52,494 nt of DNA from an uncultured Magnetospirillum sp. (GTDB lineage: Bacteria; Pseudomonadota; Alphaproteobacteria; Rhodospirillales; Magnetospirillaceae). The stretch lies in NCBI RefSeq assembly GCF_903853455.1, contig NZ_CAINTR010000153.1, forward strand, positions 1 to 52,494, read 5' to 3'. The notes below the pieces were generated by a model. It was not told the origin of the DNA. It worked only from the letters and a program-made list of their open reading frames with translations, and did not search any database. A program made the position numbers and the translations under genes. Shown one piece after another: positions 45,604 through 52,420 of this stretch (its first letter is position 1; each line of letters starts with the position of its first letter).

Positions 45604-46824
45604 TCATGCCGCCTTGCCGCGAGGGGCGAAACGGCGGATCGTGAAATCTTCCACCGCGACCCGAATCACGTCCTCGAAACCGTTGAACCCGGTGCGCAGG
45701 TAGGTGCCATAGGCTCCCAACTGGCCGATTTCGATCCAGTCGCCCTCGGTCACGTCATCGGGCAGCAGGAAGGGGCCTTGCATGCGATCCAGTGAGTCGC
45801 AGGTCGGACCGTAGAAGCTGAAGTCGCCAATGCGGCCGGTGCTGAACCCCGCGGCCTTGATCAGGCGGCAGGGATAGCGAAAGCCCAACACGCCCGCGTC
45901 GGACAAGGTGCCGTAGACCCCGTCGTTGATGTAAAGCAGGTCGCCGCGCCGTGCCTGGACCTGAACCACCAGCGACTGACAGGCCGCCACCAGAGCCCGG
46001 CCGGGCTCGCACCACAGGACGCATCCTTCGGGCAGGGCCATGCGGGCCACGCCGTGGGCGATGGCCGTCATGAACGCGTCCAGCGGAGGCGGCTGCATGT
46101 CGGGGTAGGGCACGGGAAAGCCGCCGCCCACGTCCAGCACGTCCAGGCGAATCCCGGCGTCCCGGATCACCGCGTCGGCCTGCTGCAAGGCGCGCTCCCA
46201 CGCCGACGGGTCGCAGCATTGCGAGCCCACATGAAACGACAGGCCAAGCTTGGCGGCATGGGGGGCGCAGGAGCGCAGCAACGCGGCCGCGTCATCGGCG
46301 AAGGCACCGAATTTCCCCGACAGATCCAGACGGGCGCCGCCCTTGGCCAGGCCCAGCCGTACGATCAGGCAGAGGTCCTTGGCTCCGGCGGTTTCATCGA
46401 CGATCTTGGCCAGTTCGTCGGTGCTGTCGAGTACGAAGTCGCGCACGCCGTGCTCGCGATAGGATTCGCGAATGGCCGAGCGGGCCTTGACCGGATGCAT
46501 GAAGTGAATCCGCGCCTGGGGGAACAGCCGGCGGACCAGTCGCACCTCGGTGATCGAGGCGGCGTCGAAATGAGAGATCCCTCCGGCGGCCAATGCCCGC
46601 AGAACCGCTTCGTCCGGGTTGCACTTGACGGCGTAAAGAACAGAACCGGGGAAGGCTTCGACGAAACGCGCCGCCTCGGCTGTCGCCATGGCCGGGCGCA
46701 GGCAGACCATGGGAATCTCGGGGCGGTGGGCCAGGACGGCCGCGTTCACCGATGGCAGCGACAACGGTGCGCCATCACGGCGGAAGCCAGCCTGGTCATG
46801 GGGGCGGCAGCGGGCGATGTTCAT
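45604..46824 (-). CDS. Ornithine/lysine decarboxylase (PLP, fold III)
   Basis: This 406-residue PLP enzyme converts ornithine to putrescine, or lysine to cadaverine, feeding polyamine synthesis. The PLP lysine is K67 in LYAVKCNP. HVGSQC, the phosphate-binding GGGFP and CEPGRALVA follow, then the dimer-interface FYGPTCDSLDRM with the catalytic Cys. This is the eukaryote-like, Nif3-unrelated type used by alphaproteobacteria. ATG 46824 has GGGGGAG 8 nt upstream. A roughly 290-nt leader containing a peptide gene and hairpin precedes it. Confidence 0.92.
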   Translation of the reverse strand: MNIARCRPHDQAGFRRDGAPLSLPSVNAAVLAHRPEIPMVCLRPAMATAEAARFVEAFPGSVLYAVKCNPDEAVLRALAAGGISHFDAASITEVRLVRRLFPQARIHFMHPVKARSAIRESYREHGVRDFVLDSTDELAKIVDETAGAKDLCLIVRLGLAKGGARLDLSGKFGAFADDAAALLRSCAPHAAKLGLSFHVGSQCCDPSAWERALQQADAVIRDAGIRLDVLDVGGGFPVPYPDMQPPPLDAFMTAIAHGVARMALPEGCVLWCEPGRALVAACQSLVVQVQARRGDLLYINDGVYGTLSDAGVLGFRYPCRLIKAAGFSTGRIGDFSFYGPTCDSLDRMQGPFLLPDDVTEGDWIEIGQLGAYGTYLRTGFNGFEDVIRVAVEDFTIRRFAPRGKAA

Positions 46825-46898
46825 GGGAGTGACTCCCCCCGACATGGGTCGAATCCTTCACCGATCCCTTTTCACGAAGGACGGCAATCGTTCAGGAA

Positions 46899-46938
46899 AC
46901 GGCGGCACGCGACCGGAAACAGTCGCGAAAGCCGCCGT
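46899..46938 (-). promoter_or_regulatory. Attenuator-like hairpin after the leader peptide
   Basis: The strong stem ACGGCGGC / GCCGCCGT continues with CGCGAC / GTCGCG. On the minus strand it begins at the last base of the leader peptide's stop codon. A short TTTCC follows it, so it could stop transcription or block the decarboxylase ribosome site about 60 nt downstream. Confidence 0.65.
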
Positions 46939-47003
46939 CACATACTGACGTTACGGATGGGACTGACTGGGGGGAACGTGCCCTGAATGTGGGTCGCCAA
47001 CAT
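46938..47003 (-). CDS. 21-residue leader peptide of ornithine decarboxylase
   Basis: A 21-codon frame within the leader begins MLATHIQGTF and ends PPVSPIRNVSM. A near-ideal ribosome site (GGGGAGG, 5 nt) precedes it. It is Pro-containing and has PPVSP and IRNVS near the end, the kind of tail seen in arrest peptides. Its TGA lies against the hairpin. The functional analogue would be SpeFL of enteric bacteria, which stalls on ornithine, and the alphaproteobacterial speF leader motif in Rfam. I cannot confirm that this is a member. Confidence 0.6.
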   Translation of the reverse strand: MLATHIQGTFPPVSPIRNVSM

Positions 47004-47120
47004 GTCCACCTCCCCTTCGGGTACCGGCCCATTTCTGCCGGCTCCTCCAAAAAGGACGCGTCCGTCGTTGCATAACCTCGATTGGGCCATCGGCACGTGC
47101 GTGTGCGTCACTGGGTTAAA

Positions 47121-47149
47121 TATATAGGCCGTCCGTAGACGGACGGCAA
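47121..47149 (-). promoter_or_regulatory. Decarboxylase promoter with palindromic spacer
   Basis: On the minus strand TTGCCG (47144-47149) and TATATA (47121-47126) are exactly 17 bp apart. The spacer contains most of the perfect palindrome GCCGTCCG-TAGA-CGGACGGC (47128-47147). A repressor bound there would block RNA polymerase. Transcription would start near 47114, leaving a 290-nt leader. The rest of 46825-47437 (613 bases without a large gene) holds the leader features; 47150-47437 has no gene I can support. Confidence 0.55.
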
Positions 47150-47437
47150 TCCCGGAAGTGTTACATTTTCAGGCTTCCAACTCCGCCAGCAGGGTGTCGG
47201 TGGCGCGGAGCCGATCCGCTTGATCATCCGTGACGTCGTGTGTCGCCGGATAGTCTCGGTTCAAGTTGGAACGATGTCATTTATTTCGGGGAGAGCGGCC
47301 TATACATTCGAACTGTGACGATGGCATGATTCTTTTGTTGCAGCCGGCCGCGGAGGGTGTCCGACATCGGGTGTGACGGTATAATCCGGCAATGCGGCAT
47401 CGCAATTTTGGGTTGCCGTGGACCGCAAAGCACGATC

Positions 47438-49213
47438 ATGTCCCCCCTCATTCCGCATAAATCCAGCGTTTCAGACATTCGGGTGGCTTTTCAAGCCATC
47501 GTGAACGTCCATTCCGGGCAGTGCTTCGGCCACGAGGTGCTGTTGCGTGGGTGGGAGGCGCATGGCGTCTCGTCGGTCGAGGAGATGCTGACCGCCAGCC
47601 ATGCCGGCGGGCGGCTGGTGGAGTTGGAGATCGCCATTCGCGCCAAGGTCGCCGAAGTGGCATCAACCATTCCCGCCATCGCTCAGGCGGCGCTGTTCAT
47701 CAACCTGGATGCCCGGGTGGCGGCCCATCTGGATGTGGTGATGGAGGCGACCCAAGGGGCGCTTCAACCGCGTTTCGCCCATGTGGTCACCGAGATTTCC
47801 ACCCTGCCCGAGGGGGGGATGCCGAATATCTACGCCGCCAAGACCATGCGGCGGAAGGGAGGCATGCTGGCGGTGGACCGTTTCGGCGCGTCGCCCGACT
47901 CGCTTCGTCTCCTGACCGACTGCGACCCGGATTTCATCAAGATCGACCGCTCCTTGATTCGCGGCATCGACAGCGACGCCCGCAAGCGGGTGGTGCTGGC
48001 GCAGTTGATCGGCATGGCCCACACCCTGGGGATCGAGGTCATCGCCGTCGGCGTCGAAAACGGGCGCGAGCTCACGGTGTGCCGCGAGTTGGGCCTGGAT
48101 TTGATCCAGGGCAATTTCATCAGCCCGCCCCAGGAGGATTTCGAGCGGCTGGCGGCCGACTACACCCATGTGGAAGTGCTGGCGCGCGAGGATCGCCGCC
48201 AGCGTCAGATCGACCAGAAATGGGTGTTGCAACAGATGGATCTGGTTCCGGCCATTCTGGTCGACGCCCCGGTCAGCGAAATGTTCGACCGCTTCGCCCG
48301 CTCTCCCGACAACGCCTATGTGCCGGTGGTGGACGCGACGGGGCGGCCGGTCGGGATCGTCCGCGAAAGCGACATGAAAAATTACGCATATTCAACCTAT
48401 GGCAAGGACCTCATCGCCAACAAGGCGCTGGGGCGGCGGCTGCGCGAATTCGTGGTGCGCTGCCCCATCGCCGACATCGCCACGCCGCTGGACCGGATGC
48501 TGGCCATCTACGCCGCCGTGGAGCAGGCCGACGGCATCCTGGTGAGCGAGCACATGGTCTATCGCGGGTTTCTGACCGCCCGGTCGCTGATCCGCGCCAT
48601 GCACGAGAAGACCCTGGCGCGGGCGCGCGACGAGAACCCGCTCAGCAAGCTGCCCGGCAACGTGGTCATCAACGAATATGTGGTCGACTGCGTCGCGGGC
48701 GGCGAAGGTGTGGTCCTCGCCTATATCGACTTCGACAACTTCAAGCCGTTCAACGACACTTACGGCTTTCGCCAGGGCGACCGCGCCATCCTGTTGTTCG
48801 CCGAGTTGTGCCGCAAGAACGCCGATCCGCAGACGTGGTTCCTGGGTCATATCGGCGGCGACGATTTCTTCGTGGGCATCAAGGCGGTGTCGCAGGACGA
48901 GGCGGTGCTGGCCATCGGCGAGTTGATCCACCTGTTCTCGTCGGATGCCGAAAGTTTCTACGACCAGGATGCCCGTCAGCGCGGCTGCATCACCGCCCAG
49001 GATCGTGAAGGCCATATCAAGTCGTTTCCGCTGCTGTCGGCCAGCGCCGTGCTGTTCGTGCTGCCGCCAGGATGCCGCGACGTCAGCGTCGACGACATCT
49101 CGTCGGCGATCGCCGCCAAGAAAAAGGAGGCGAAGTCCGCCCCCAACAAGTTGGCCATCGTCGAGTTTTCCGGTGGGGATCCCGCTGCCGCGCTTGAGTT
49201 AACCGAACATTAA
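47438..49213 (+). CDS. EAL-CBS-GGDEF c-di-GMP protein with altered EAL site
   Basis: In this 591-residue protein the order is EAL (about 10-240), CBS pair (265-385) and GGDEF (about 395-570). The EAL domain keeps EVLLRG, FINLD, VTEIS and KIDRSLI, but the metal-binding DDFG reads DRFG and loop 6 (GxGYSS) reads ASPDS, so phosphodiesterase activity may be lost. The GGDEF domain has DFDNFKPFNDTYG and GGDDF, a good diguanylate cyclase motif; no RxxD I-site is visible. CBS pairs often bind adenosine nucleotides, so the enzyme may be allosterically controlled. ATG 47438 begins just before the EAL domain; a GTG at 47357 is less likely. Confidence 0.9.
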   Translation: MSPLIPHKSSVSDIRVAFQAIVNVHSGQCFGHEVLLRGWEAHGVSSVEEMLTASHAGGRLVELEIAIRAKVAEVASTIPAIAQAALFINLDARVAAHLDVVMEATQGALQPRFAHVVTEISTLPEGGMPNIYAAKTMRRKGGMLAVDRFGASPDSLRLLTDCDPDFIKIDRSLIRGIDSDARKRVVLAQLIGMAHTLGIEVIAVGVENGRELTVCRELGLDLIQGNFISPPQEDFERLAADYTHVEVLAREDRRQRQIDQKWVLQQMDLVPAILVDAPVSEMFDRFARSPDNAYVPVVDATGRPVGIVRESDMKNYAYSTYGKDLIANKALGRRLREFVVRCPIADIATPLDRMLAIYAAVEQADGILVSEHMVYRGFLTARSLIRAMHEKTLARARDENPLSKLPGNVVINEYVVDCVAGGEGVVLAYIDFDNFKPFNDTYGFRQGDRAILLFAELCRKNADPQTWFLGHIGGDDFFVGIKAVSQDEAVLAIGELIHLFSSDAESFYDQDARQRGCITAQDREGHIKSFPLLSASAVLFVLPPGCRDVSVDDISSAIAAKKKEAKSAPNKLAIVEFSGGDPAAALELTEH

Positions 49214-49289
49214 CATCTGGCGGCTTCCGCCAGGGCTATTGTGCGGTGCGGCACCGGAGACTTCATTCGTCACAAAAAGGATTTCGGGG

Positions 49290-50330
49290 ATGACGATCCG
49301 CAGCGGAACAACGGCGCGGTGTCTCGCCTCGGCGTGGGTTGTCTTGGCGTTGTCGGTCGCTTGGCCGCACGGGGCGGCGGCGATGGAACGGGAGGCGGCC
49401 GGCCCGCTTCGCTTCGCCCTGATTTCCCCCCAGTCGCGGCAGGAAACCGAGGAAAAATGGACGCCGGTGCTGACGGCGCTTGGCCGGTATTTGGGAATGA
49501 CGGTGGAAGCCGACGTCGCAACCGACTATGCCGGCGCCATCTGGAGTCTTCGCAGCGGCCGGGCCCAATTGGCTTGGCTCGGCAACAAGGGCGCCATGGA
49601 GGCAGTCGACAATGCCGGCGCCGAGGTGTTTGCGCAGCAGACCTATCCCTCCGGTCTCGGCGGCTACTACAGTTATGTGATCGTGGCCAAGGAATCGCCC
49701 CTGGCCGATGTCGACGACCTCATTTCCACGGCCGCCGGGTTGACCTTGGCGCAGGGCGATCCCAACTCCACTTCCGGCACCGTGGTGCCGAACTACTACC
49801 TGTTTTCCCGGCGCCATCTCGAGCCGCGCAAGATATTCAAGCGTGTGACCCAGGCGAACCACGAGGACAACATCGTCGCGGTGGCCGAGGGGCGGGCCGA
49901 TGCCGCCACCGTCGCCAGCGTGCACTACGACCAGGTCGGCCGGAAACGTCCCGAGGTCGTCGCCGCCACTCGGATCATCTGGCGATCACCGCTGATTCCC
50001 GGCGATCCCCTGGTATGGCGCAAGGATCTGCCGCCGGACCTCAAGGCCCGGATCGCCGGGTTTTTCCTCAATTACGGCGTTGCCGGCCACGGCAAGAAAT
50101 CCGCCGTGCTGGCCGAGGAGCGCGCCGCCCTCGAACGTTTGGACGTCAGGAGCTTCGTCGCCTCGGATAACCGTCAGTTGATGTCGGTGAGGCTGCTCGA
50201 ACTGGCGAAGACCCGGACCCAGATCGAAATGGACAAATCCGCCTCACCGGCCGACCAGTCCCGGCGGCTCAAGGAGATCGACCGCAAGATCGCCGAGATC
50301 GACCGTCTCTCCAACCCTGCGGCCAACTGA
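49290..50330 (+). CDS. PhnD-like periplasmic binding protein with C-terminal coiled coil
   Basis: This 346-residue protein has a signal peptide at residues 1-32 (SAWVVLALSVAWPHGAAA). It is of the phosphate/phosphonate-binding type: LRFALISPQSRQETEEKW, DYAGAIWSLRSGRAQLAWLG, GDPNSTSGTVVPNYYLF. It has no ABC permease or ATPase partner; the next gene, nine bases away, is a membrane c-di-GMP enzyme. The last about 70 residues (LLELAKTRTQIEMDKSASPA then KEIDRKIAEIDRL) form a predicted coiled coil beyond the usual fold, perhaps to contact the partner. The ligand is unknown. Confidence 0.85.
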   Translation: MTIRSGTTARCLASAWVVLALSVAWPHGAAAMEREAAGPLRFALISPQSRQETEEKWTPVLTALGRYLGMTVEADVATDYAGAIWSLRSGRAQLAWLGNKGAMEAVDNAGAEVFAQQTYPSGLGGYYSYVIVAKESPLADVDDLISTAAGLTLAQGDPNSTSGTVVPNYYLFSRRHLEPRKIFKRVTQANHEDNIVAVAEGRADAATVASVHYDQVGRKRPEVVAATRIIWRSPLIPGDPLVWRKDLPPDLKARIAGFFLNYGVAGHGKKSAVLAEERAALERLDVRSFVASDNRQLMSVRLLELAKTRTQIEMDKSASPADQSRRLKEIDRKIAEIDRLSNPAAN

Positions 50331-50338
50331 GGCGAGCG

Positions 50339-52420
50339 ATGATCAATCCCGTTGTCCATCGCGTCTCTGGCGGTATCGGCGCCAAACTGTTGCTGGTCGT
50401 GCTGCCATGCATGCTGCTGGGGGCGGTGGCCATGTTCATGCTGTTCGAGCAGTACAGCACCCGCGACCGGGTGTCGGCCCTGCGGGCTCGCCTGGACAGC
50501 TTCGCCGTCACCCAGGCGGCATCGCTGGTCAAGCCGCTATGGGAGTTCGACTCCGCCACTGTCGACCGTCTGTTCCGATCCTATGCCGATGTCCCCGAAC
50601 TGTTCAGCGCCCAGGTCTTCAATGCCGATGGAGTTGCCGTCGCCACGGTGGCGGGGCACGAGACCGATGGTCATCGGGAGGTCTTCGGCAGAGTGGTGCC
50701 GTTGGTTCAGCAAACCCCGGGGGGAGACTATTCCGTCGGCCGGCTGGAGGTTGCGTTTCATGATGGACGGGTGCAGGGCGAACTGAACGGACAGCGGACC
50801 GGCGGGGTGATGGTCCTGTCGGGCGCCTTCCTGCTGCTGGCGGGGGTGAGTTTGCTGGCGGTTCGCCGTCTGGTCGCCAACCCGCTCAGGCGGTTGAGGG
50901 ATTCGCTTCATCACAACGCCTCGGTCCTGACGCGGGAACCGCTGGTCTGGACCGGGCAGGATGAGGTGGGGGAGGTGGTCTACGCCTATAATCAACTCCT
51001 GTCGGAGATTGATCAGCGCACCGAGGACATCCACCATCTGGCCTATCACGATCCCCTGACCGGCCTGCCCAACCGGCGGCTGCTGGAGGATCGCATCGGC
51101 CATGCCATCGCTGTCGCCGAGCGTCAGCATCGGACCATCGCCCTGTTGTTCGCCGACATCGACAACTTCAAGGTGGTCAACGACACTTTGGGGCACAAGC
51201 AGGGCGACGCGCTGCTTCGGGTCGCCGCCGAGCGCATGTCGGGGATCATGCGGGGCATGGACACCATCGCCCGCTGGGGCGGCGACGAGTTCGTCATCGT
51301 CATCGAGAATCTGTCTTTGGCCGGCGAGGCTTCCAGCGTCGCCGAGAAGCTGATCGAAGCGGTGGGCATTCCCATCCACCTGGGCAGCAATCTGCTGCGG
51401 ATCGGGGTGTCGGTCGGAATCAGCCTCTATCCCCAGGATGGCATCGACGTGACCACCCTGGTCAAGAACGCTGACATGGCGCTGTTCGAAGCCAAGGGGC
51501 GTGGCCGCAACACCTTCCATTTCTTCGATCAGGCCATGAATGCCCGTGCCATGCGGCGGCTGGACGTGGAAATGGCGTTGCGTCAAGCCATCACCCTGGG
51601 CCAGTTGGAACTGCACTACCAGCCCAAGATCACCTCCGCCAGCGGCGCCATCGCTGGGGTCGAGGCGTTGATCCGGTGGCGTCGTCCCGGCGAGGGACTG
51701 ATCCAGCCCGACGAGTTCATTCCGCTGGCCGAGGAAAGCGATCTGATCGTCGCGGTGGGCGAATGGGTGCTGAAGGAGGCTTGCGCCCAAATCCGTGACT
51801 GGCAGGCCCGGGGGGTCGGCGATGTCCATGTGGCCGTCAATCTGTCCCCCCGTCACTTCCGCCACGAGAGAGACCTGGACGGCATCATGGCGGTGGTCGA
51901 TGCCGCTGGAGTTCCCCCCAGCCTCATCGAGATCGAGGTGACCGAGACGACCCTGATGCACGAGCCGGAAAAAGTCATCGGCTTCCTCCAGCGCCTGCGC
52001 GACCACGGCTTCGGCATCGCCATCGACGACTTCGGCAGCGGGTATTCCAACCTGTCCTATCTCCGGCGGTTGCCGATCACCACCCTCAAGATCGACCGCG
52101 CCTTCGTGATGGACATCGAGCACAACGAAGACAATGTGGAGATTATCCGCGCCATCATCGCCATGGCCAACGCGCTGGGTTTGGGGCTGGTGGCGGAAGG
52201 GGTCGAGACCGAACGGCAATTCGCCTTCCTCCGGGGCTCGGACTGCGCGGTGGTGCAAGGCTACTATTTCTCGCGCCCCCTGCCGCCGGGCGATCTTGAA
52301 GCCTTGCTGCCCAAGCTTCCGCCCCGGATGGAGACCGGCCATTCCCTGTCTTCGCCGCTGGGGATCCGGCCGCCACCGGCCGCCATGGGCGAGGCTTTCG
52401 CCGTCCCCGCGATCAGCTGA
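50339..52420 (+). CDS. Membrane HAMP-GGDEF-EAL protein
   Basis: This 693-residue protein has two membrane helices (about 15-36 and 158-178), a periplasmic sensor region between them, HAMP (NPLRRLRDSLHHN), GGDEF and EAL. The cyclase motif WGGDEF is intact with a preceding RGMD I-site. The EAL site also looks intact: EALIRW, VAVNLSPRHF, EVTETTL, DDFGSGYSNL, LKIDRAFV and GVETE. It could make or break c-di-GMP, depending on the signal. The periplasmic part is about 120 residues and may bind the PhnD-like protein encoded just upstream. Terminator-like bases follow its stop. Confidence 0.93.
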   Translation: MINPVVHRVSGGIGAKLLLVVLPCMLLGAVAMFMLFEQYSTRDRVSALRARLDSFAVTQAASLVKPLWEFDSATVDRLFRSYADVPELFSAQVFNADGVAVATVAGHETDGHREVFGRVVPLVQQTPGGDYSVGRLEVAFHDGRVQGELNGQRTGGVMVLSGAFLLLAGVSLLAVRRLVANPLRRLRDSLHHNASVLTREPLVWTGQDEVGEVVYAYNQLLSEIDQRTEDIHHLAYHDPLTGLPNRRLLEDRIGHAIAVAERQHRTIALLFADIDNFKVVNDTLGHKQGDALLRVAAERMSGIMRGMDTIARWGGDEFVIVIENLSLAGEASSVAEKLIEAVGIPIHLGSNLLRIGVSVGISLYPQDGIDVTTLVKNADMALFEAKGRGRNTFHFFDQAMNARAMRRLDVEMALRQAITLGQLELHYQPKITSASGAIAGVEALIRWRRPGEGLIQPDEFIPLAEESDLIVAVGEWVLKEACAQIRDWQARGVGDVHVAVNLSPRHFRHERDLDGIMAVVDAAGVPPSLIEIEVTETTLMHEPEKVIGFLQRLRDHGFGIAIDDFGSGYSNLSYLRRLPITTLKIDRAFVMDIEHNEDNVEIIRAIIAMANALGLGLVAEGVETERQFAFLRGSDCAVVQGYYFSRPLPPGDLEALLPKLPPRMETGHSLSSPLGIRPPPAAMGEAFAVPAIS

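Follow-up and report, generated by a model that had tools for sequence, protein, structure and literature searches.

A diverged extended speF leader with a short upstream reading frame, widespread before polyamine genes in Alphaproteobacteria

The speF leader of Gammaproteobacteria (SpeFL/orf34) carries an upstream open reading frame (uORF) before an ornithine decarboxylase gene, whose expression is determined by rare codons, ribosome pausing and RNA structure, and in Salmonella rare-codon pausing on orf34 can control Rho and mRNA structure (PMC6386406). The available text of that source describes a conserved peptide domain and mentions nothing equivalent to the conserved RNA core treated here. 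In Alphaproteobacteria, Corbino et al. (PMC1273637) reported an "extended speF element". When the leader of A. tumefaciens was examined by in-line probing, none of ornithine, lysine, mDAP, putrescine, cadaverine and spermidine bound, and homospermidine is not named among these six compounds, tested in 2005, in the available part of the account (PMC1273637). ar45 has additionally been described as an independently expressed RNA immediately 5' of speF, co-immunoprecipitated with Hfq in S. meliloti (PMC7717549). As far as the available portions of this literature go, the function of both speF (no ligand found in 2005) and ar45 (an "sRNA") is left open. In the SAM-II metA leader of S. meliloti, an alphaproteobacterial riboswitch with SAM as its ligand, the core is followed by a Shine-Dalgarno sequence (SD) and an AUG1 ahead of the real start; a short RNA arises there by premature termination, translation is controlled at a distance, and AUG1 is unused in its native context (PMC9373788).

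In this work we analysed the window (the whole stretch of 52,494 nucleotides), in which a leader precedes a decarboxylase gene. This leader is real, larger than the original prediction had read it, and marks a polyamine leader which is widespread in Alphaproteobacteria. Its core is homologous to that of the extended speF element, likewise starts near a putative transcription start and likewise lies 5' of a COG0019-type ornithine/lysine decarboxylase. It differs from that element in its P1 stem (GCCC/GGGC there, GACGC/GCGUC here), in the clear SD-AUG-uORF after the core, in having homospermidine synthase and, once, spermidine genes among its targets, and in giving no Rfam match in the window. 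We know of no sequence relation between this core and SAM-II metA. Among the papers listed in searches of the open-licence PMC literature, none connects this leader with homospermidine synthase or mentions the AGU pattern reported below. With speF and ar45 joined in one cis element, with new targets and with a codon-plus-hairpin device, the question of sensing becomes testable, and the leader offers a testable route to a sensor unexplained since 2005. Moreover, the frame-locked choice of AGU, and rarely of its synonyms, in otherwise free uORFs would surprise specialists in translation-coupled control.

Layout of the leader in the window

The features of the leader are collected in Table 1. The transcript probably starts near 47112. 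The "strong" -10/-35 originally claimed did not hold up, since a promoter scan of 46820-47360 called no promoter and the pair in Table 1 matches, by eye, at 8 of 12 positions; TATA-like hexamers are also seen by eye 5' of the core in several relatives. Between the promoter-like hexamers lies a perfect 8-bp inverted repeat, GCCGTCCG-TCTA-CGGACGGC (47147-47128, minus strand), which is listed as terminator-like by the scan and is possibly an operator; by eye, it is not seen in L082 or L083. The U-run after P1, which the terminator scan did not call, would be the counterpart of the ar45 3' end and is a predicted termination site.

Table 1. Leader features and the following gene, in window positions
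Feature	Position	Strand	Basis or remark
Promoter-like pair, weak: TTGCCG (47149-47144), 17 nt, TATATA (47126-47121)	47121..47149	-	by eye
Conserved RNA core, model R1, 104.3 bits	47001..47114	-	window leader is a training member; last base (47001) is the G of the uORF AUG
P1 5' arm GACGC	47105..47109	-	R1 alignment, covariation
P1 3' arm GCGUC	47055..47059	-	R1 alignment, covariation
U-run, 5 U, after P1	47049..47053	-	terminator-like end of the 5' module
Second hairpin CCGGC/GCCGG	47024..47041	-	5/5 pairs with both-side changes
uORF Shine-Dalgarno GGAGGT	47008..47013	-	adjoins a CCC-GAA-GGGG hairpin
uORF MLATHIQGTFPPVSPIRNVSM, 21 codons + TGA	46938..47003	-	ATG 47003-47001, TGA 46940-46938
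Rare Ser codon AGT, in frame, codon 20	46944..46946	-	sequence and cross-leader frame test
Hairpin from within the stop codon, 4 nt past AGT	46898..46939	-	folding
AR-fold ornithine/lysine-type decarboxylase	45604..46824	-	alternative start 46845

The 21-codon ORF is present as originally read, with GGGGAGGTGGAC directly in front of its ATG, and so is the hairpin with which its stop codon merges, folding at -31.2 kcal/mol (60 nt folded). A further in-frame AGT stands at codon 14 (46964-46962), and L153, which precedes the homospermidine synthase gene of this genome, shows the same arrangement of AGT, stop codon and hairpin. A fold of 306 nt (46815-47120) has a z of -3.0, with 0/100 shuffles equally stable; when the window leader is folded by itself, its minimum-energy structure has the second hairpin and lacks the closed 5' hairpin.

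The downstream gene is, as predicted, of the ornithine/lysine decarboxylase type: Pfam PF02784 and PF00278 score above cut-off, and the closest solved relatives are 2plj and 5gjm (lysine/ornithine decarboxylase; E 6.5e-41 and 9.7e-41), with nothing above cut-off in NCBIfam. By eye, its start is more likely the ATG at 46824-46822, with GGGGGGAG as its SD, than the one at 46845, as it also looks in L082 and L083. The divergent genes beside the leader (47357-52420, plus strand) appear, by eye, to encode a periplasmic binding protein and signalling proteins of the EAL/GGDEF type.

The RNA core, its relation to speF and ar45, and its distribution

The covariance model R1 was built from 34 related leaders, none of them an ar45/speF locus, which were picked for spread and length from 56 listed leaders to give alignment A1 (L112 and L028 were set aside). 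In the core, a long hairpin with GACGC/GCGUC as its closing stem precedes a U-run, a second hairpin and an SD, the AUG comes directly after, and the internal loops CGCACGUGCC/GCAACGACG of the long hairpin are near-invariant. In L149 the P1 stem reads GACGU/ACGUC and in the ar45 loci GCCC/GGGC, and the distance from the 5' module to the SD-AUG is similar before different genes. The uORF SD is of the GGAGGT type in Rhodospirillaceae and of a weaker GGGA type in Acetobacteraceae. Based on 50 loci aligned to R1 (a fit to the model itself, which favours the structure), 12 of 20 pairs show changes on both sides and 97.7% of the cells are paired. None of 500 shuffles attained the observed value on any of five covariation measures, and all of these measures dropped strongly when the pairing partners were shifted in the same 50 loci. 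The core has, as riboswitches do, a conserved, covarying RNA fold in the 5' leader.

The original prediction of a speF-type leader stood by homology and failed with the Rfam model itself. Neither RF00518 nor RF02347 matched in 46000-49000, at its curated score or at E<=10, and the only Rfam matches at E<=10 there were weak ones to FTX_5 and the L2 leader, both outside our leader. RF00518 was likewise not found in the genome of the window (in a search without positive control, with a model that does match other alphaproteobacterial loci), RF02347 in 0/55 genomes of the family (strict filters, without positive control), and any Rfam family at E<=5 in the leaders of L083, L008, L024, L099 and L031. 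RF00518 matched in 13/240 alphaproteobacterial genomes (E<=0.01), 6 of them above cut-off, and a search of the best 8 of these loci (L111-L118, from what appear to be Rhizobiales) against all of Rfam gave ar45 in all 8 and speF above cut-off in 6, side by side, speF coming directly after ar45. R1 spans ar45 together with the 5' part of speF in seven of these eight loci (L111-L114 and L116-L118, E 4e-6 to 3e-4), the eighth, L115, reaching an E of only 0.13. Because R1 finds 7/8 ar45/speF loci, the window leader is a diverged extended speF element, an element represented in Rfam by two separate families, ar45 (an "sRNA") and speF; this coverage fits the extended speF element as set out in the available part of Corbino et al. 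(PMC1273637).

R1 detects the core in 68/385 alphaproteobacterial genomes (E<=0.01) and in 9/299 genomes of a phylum sample that includes members of the class (E<=0.001), all 9 being Alphaproteobacteria; in the orders of two matched genomes, 7/7 and 69/76 genomes carry it (E<=1e-6). Among relatives of the window decarboxylase (80 loci kept out of 143), the core is present at 75/80, 26 of which loci were in R1; among the 54 non-training loci it is present at 49, some of these being near-copies of training leaders (e.g. L029 and L025 score alike). As to the five coreless loci, L027, L041 and L049 have just 236, 17 and 123 bases before the decarboxylase match, and in L001 and L002 the decarboxylase lies directly behind a gene read by eye as agmatinase. 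More distant decarboxylases (L106-L110, 43-49% identity) have no core at E<=0.05. The genome of the window holds three clear copies, in the window, on C133 (101.7 bits) and on C165 (38.9 bits), and a fourth place (E 0.86) is taken as chance. Only the searches for decarboxylase relatives found loci through a gene. Most loci were found via the core and contain it for that reason, but that polyamine genes follow it is no such product of the search.

This link extends beyond the window-type decarboxylase. The C133 copy (leader L153) precedes a homospermidine synthase (E 3e-154 to solved homospermidine synthases; saccharopine dehydrogenase domains in Pfam, no match in NCBIfam), and the C165 copy precedes a second PF02784 decarboxylase. 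When each leader row is assigned to whichever of three reference proteins matches best in the following 1500 bases, 172 rows (omitting L198, the second L137 match and L102, whose leader is the same as that of L055, and otherwise not deduplicated) divide into 113 with the window decarboxylase, a number inflated by seeding, 46 with the second decarboxylase, 8 with homospermidine synthase and 5 with none; the 85 rows from the genome search divide into 46 second-type, 26 window-type, 8 homospermidine synthase and 5 none. We read the second-type decarboxylase as the usual ODC. Of the five rows with none, L192, the sole case of its kind, precedes an AdoMet decarboxylase and a spermidine synthase (above the NCBIfam cut-offs), L142 a class-I glutamine amidotransferase (Pfam above cut-off, NCBIfam below) and L178 (core at 60.9 bits) a 136-aa ORF with no family match, while L127 and L162 end too soon for a target and have uORFs of the homospermidine-synthase type.

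The upstream reading frame and its AGT codon

The prediction that an ORF at this place is kept among relatives was borne out: at the AUG that follows the core, a uORF of 8-62 codons opens in 148/172 rows. In 12/172 the ORF runs into the downstream gene (11 second decarboxylases, among which L206 and L207 are weak matches, and the amidotransferase of L142), and in 3/172 (L157, L159, L180) this AUG is the decarboxylase start itself, with no uORF. The remaining rows have fewer than 8 codons (3), no start codon by our rule (5) or an ORF of 136 codons (1).

The peptide fared differently. Across 20 clusters of related uORFs, variable columns number 102/102/129 by codon position, and the window cluster (3 sequences) did not display the coding-type substitutions proposed as a check (13/10/8, with 4 synonymous vs 35 nonsynonymous codon differences). 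Partial exceptions are L134/L137 (13/12/31), L051 with L071-L073 and L078 (4/3/11) and the uORFs before homospermidine synthase (8/7/10). By this mostly negative test the peptide body is lineage-specific and unconserved; a conserved peptide sequence of the SpeFL type was not found in the uORF clusters tested, where just a short C-terminal motif recurs. A sensor role of the peptide in general, as originally proposed, is disfavoured by these bodies and by the three rows in which the AUG is the decarboxylase start. As for the proposed stalling residues, PPVSP is unconserved (IPQFNP in L082, IPQFDP in L083), and IRNVS was partly right, since IRNV-S(AGT)-M contains the recurrent frame-locked AGT followed by Met, but with Val in place of the usual Ser, Thr or Arg.

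What does recur is the codon AGT. The tests exclude redundant rows and those without a clear start; the one on 100 uORFs also requires a terminated ORF of 8-62 codons. Counted over the final 12 codons of these 100 nonredundant uORFs, AGT occurs 61/5/4 times by frame, being in frame in 54 uORFs and absent in frame from the other 46. Its in-frame ratio (11.1) is the highest among the 64 triplets, followed by ATG (9.8), which often comes after AGT. In an ORF-independent test on 105 nonredundant leaders, AGTAT[GC] occurs 18/0/0 times by frame, at 14 distinct distances from the AUG, CGAAGT 16/1/3, TC[GC]AGT 12/0/0 and all AGT 74/23/23. Judged by these counts, the uORF frame, and hence its translation, is under selection. 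That the ORF arose by chance in an ordinary 5' UTR, as the poor conservation of the peptide body might have suggested, is already contradicted by the 18/0/0 and 61/5/4 counts and by the core at 75/80 loci, and we give this reading almost no credence. A check on new loci (30 of 31 fetched, L236 having no start by rule) gave AGTAT[GC] 26/0/1 and all AGT 37/7/9 by frame; this check is not independent, because 27/30 of the new loci are >70% like earlier leaders or one another, and the 3 nonredundant ones have AGT 2/1/2 by frame.

The AGT codon is also associated with the hairpin. Where AGT lies within 3 codons of the stop (n=25), the mean z of the 55 bases beginning six before the stop is -2.97, vs -0.05 thirty bases upstream, and the other uORF groups have weaker hairpins (-1.25, n=29; -1.06, n=45). 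Anchored on AGT, uORFs with no CGA before it (n=37) reach a z of -2.45 at +6, and those with CGA-AGT (n=17) at most -1.67, at +12. By eye, the hairpin sequence varies between lineages, and in several Acetobacteraceae the AGT lies within the hairpin loop and not before the hairpin.

The start region, in turn, may pair with the core. Complementarity to GCAACGACG is 10.99 over AUG+0..+15 (other stretches 6.6 to 10.2, most about 8.3), and 9.87 over AUG+3..+15 vs 8.38 in mononucleotide shuffles (n=99). Such figures suggest that the core could pair alternatively with the start region; as the pairing strand is almost invariant, it offers no covariation for this pairing.

Proposed mechanism, alternatives and lineage variants

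We propose, with a probability of about one half, that the leader exerts a two-stage RNA control of polyamine genes, in which the core is the sensor and switch and the uORF the actuator. In this mechanism, the core would sense a polyamine-related signal, either a metabolite directly or via a protein, and would alternate between two forms: a closed, terminator-like one that yields a short RNA of the ar45 type, and one whose GCAACGAC strand is able to pair with the region of the start codon. The state of the core would then set both transcription beyond the U-run and translation of the uORF, on which the ribosome would slow at AGU, the hairpin then standing where the mRNA enters the ribosome; the presence of this ribosome would settle whether synthesis of the decarboxylase is pre-empted by the downstream hairpin, by Rho or by decay factors. 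The core is the likeliest sensor because it is also present where there is no uORF (3 rows) or where the ORF continues into the gene (12 rows), and its direct output would be access to the uORF AUG and perhaps termination at the U-run. Sensing, termination and pausing are steps that we infer. Salmonella orf34 and SAM-II metA serve as precedents for this mechanism. Counting against it are the six compounds that did not bind in A. tumefaciens, the 46/100 uORFs with no in-frame AGT in their last 12 codons, the position of the AGT in the hairpin loop in several Acetobacteraceae, the fold of the window leader that lacks the closed 5' hairpin, and the near-invariance of the strand to which the start region is complementary. 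A more tentative proposal, which we hold to be possible but less likely than not, is that speF and ar45 are the halves of one sensor (probably a new riboswitch class), that the regulon spans ornithine/lysine decarboxylases, homospermidine synthase and AdoMet decarboxylase-spermidine synthase across Alphaproteobacteria, and that the output is a uORF with a hairpin-backed, codon-specific AGU pause; homospermidine would be the first candidate ligand.

The strongest alternative is a SpeFL-like arrest peptide, in which a nascent chain ending in [S/T]-S-[M/I] would bind a small molecule in the tunnel and stall the ribosome at or near the stop, so that the hairpin melts. The C-terminal motif is indeed frame-locked and a hairpin stands at the stop; [ST]S[MI] occurs 19 times in the 100 nonredundant uORFs with its first residue encoded by five codons, and within one order all 27/27 new uORFs (32-45 aa) contain SS[IM], 17/27 ending in PSSIG, with a diverging middle. 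The second Ser of [ST]S[MI] is nevertheless AGT in 16/19 cases, which points to the codon or the RNA and not to the amino acid; in RS[PT], Ser is AGT in 14/15 and Arg is CGA in 14/15, and before other residues [ST]S has AGT in merely 10/28. From the bias within [ST]S[MI] and RS[PT] it follows that the codon, and not the residue alone, is kept in these motifs. Against an arrest peptide there are also the unconserved body, most clusters having no third-position bias, the weak excess of K/R in the six residues before AGT (41/54, 76%, vs a background of 64%) and the 15/172 rows in which the uORF is missing or runs into the gene. We regard this alternative as rather unlikely.

Less likely still is a codon-rate attenuator in which the core has no dedicated sensor and is merely a structured element for ribosome loading and mRNA stability, decoding of AGU (and CGA) tracking the supply of Ser/Arg-tRNA or the polyamine level, as with the rare Arg codons of Salmonella orf34. 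Such a device would agree with the share of AGT, which makes up 2.8% of uORF codons vs 8/2411 (0.33%) in five window ORFs, and with the CGA found directly before AGT in 17/54 uORFs, but it leaves unexplained both the near-invariant core loops before different genes and the loci without a uORF. It is improbable, finally, that the 5' module is a trans-acting sRNA (ar45) which shares the promoter region, with the decarboxylase leader controlled separately: the independent expression and Hfq co-immunoprecipitation of ar45 described for S. meliloti in the available text of PMC7717549 speak for it, and against it, genes of different kinds have the module linked to the SD-AUG with similar spacing, as expected of a cis element.

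Since the ends of the uORFs resemble a recoding site, we also considered programmed (antizyme-like) frameshifting from the uORF into the decarboxylase. It is rejected, since the main frame is closed in 34 of 53 loci (open in 19); in the window too, by eye, the decarboxylase frame is closed from the shift site.

Some lineages show patterns of their own. In L142 (1609-2490, plus strand), an ORF from just after the core continues in frame into the amidotransferase, which may likewise belong to the regulon. By eye, L140, L164, L165, L167, L172, L175, L207 and L193 share R-[LS]-R (TRLRN-like) with varied codons, situated in an N-terminal extension (or uORF) before the second-type decarboxylase, which suggests a conserved peptide in that lineage. 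The homospermidine-synthase-type leaders L125, L126, L127, L131, L138, L162, L163 and L181 have a 14-aa uORF, which by eye reads M[FNT]GH..AP.PR..R-like in 5/8, with L125, L126 and L131 deviating.
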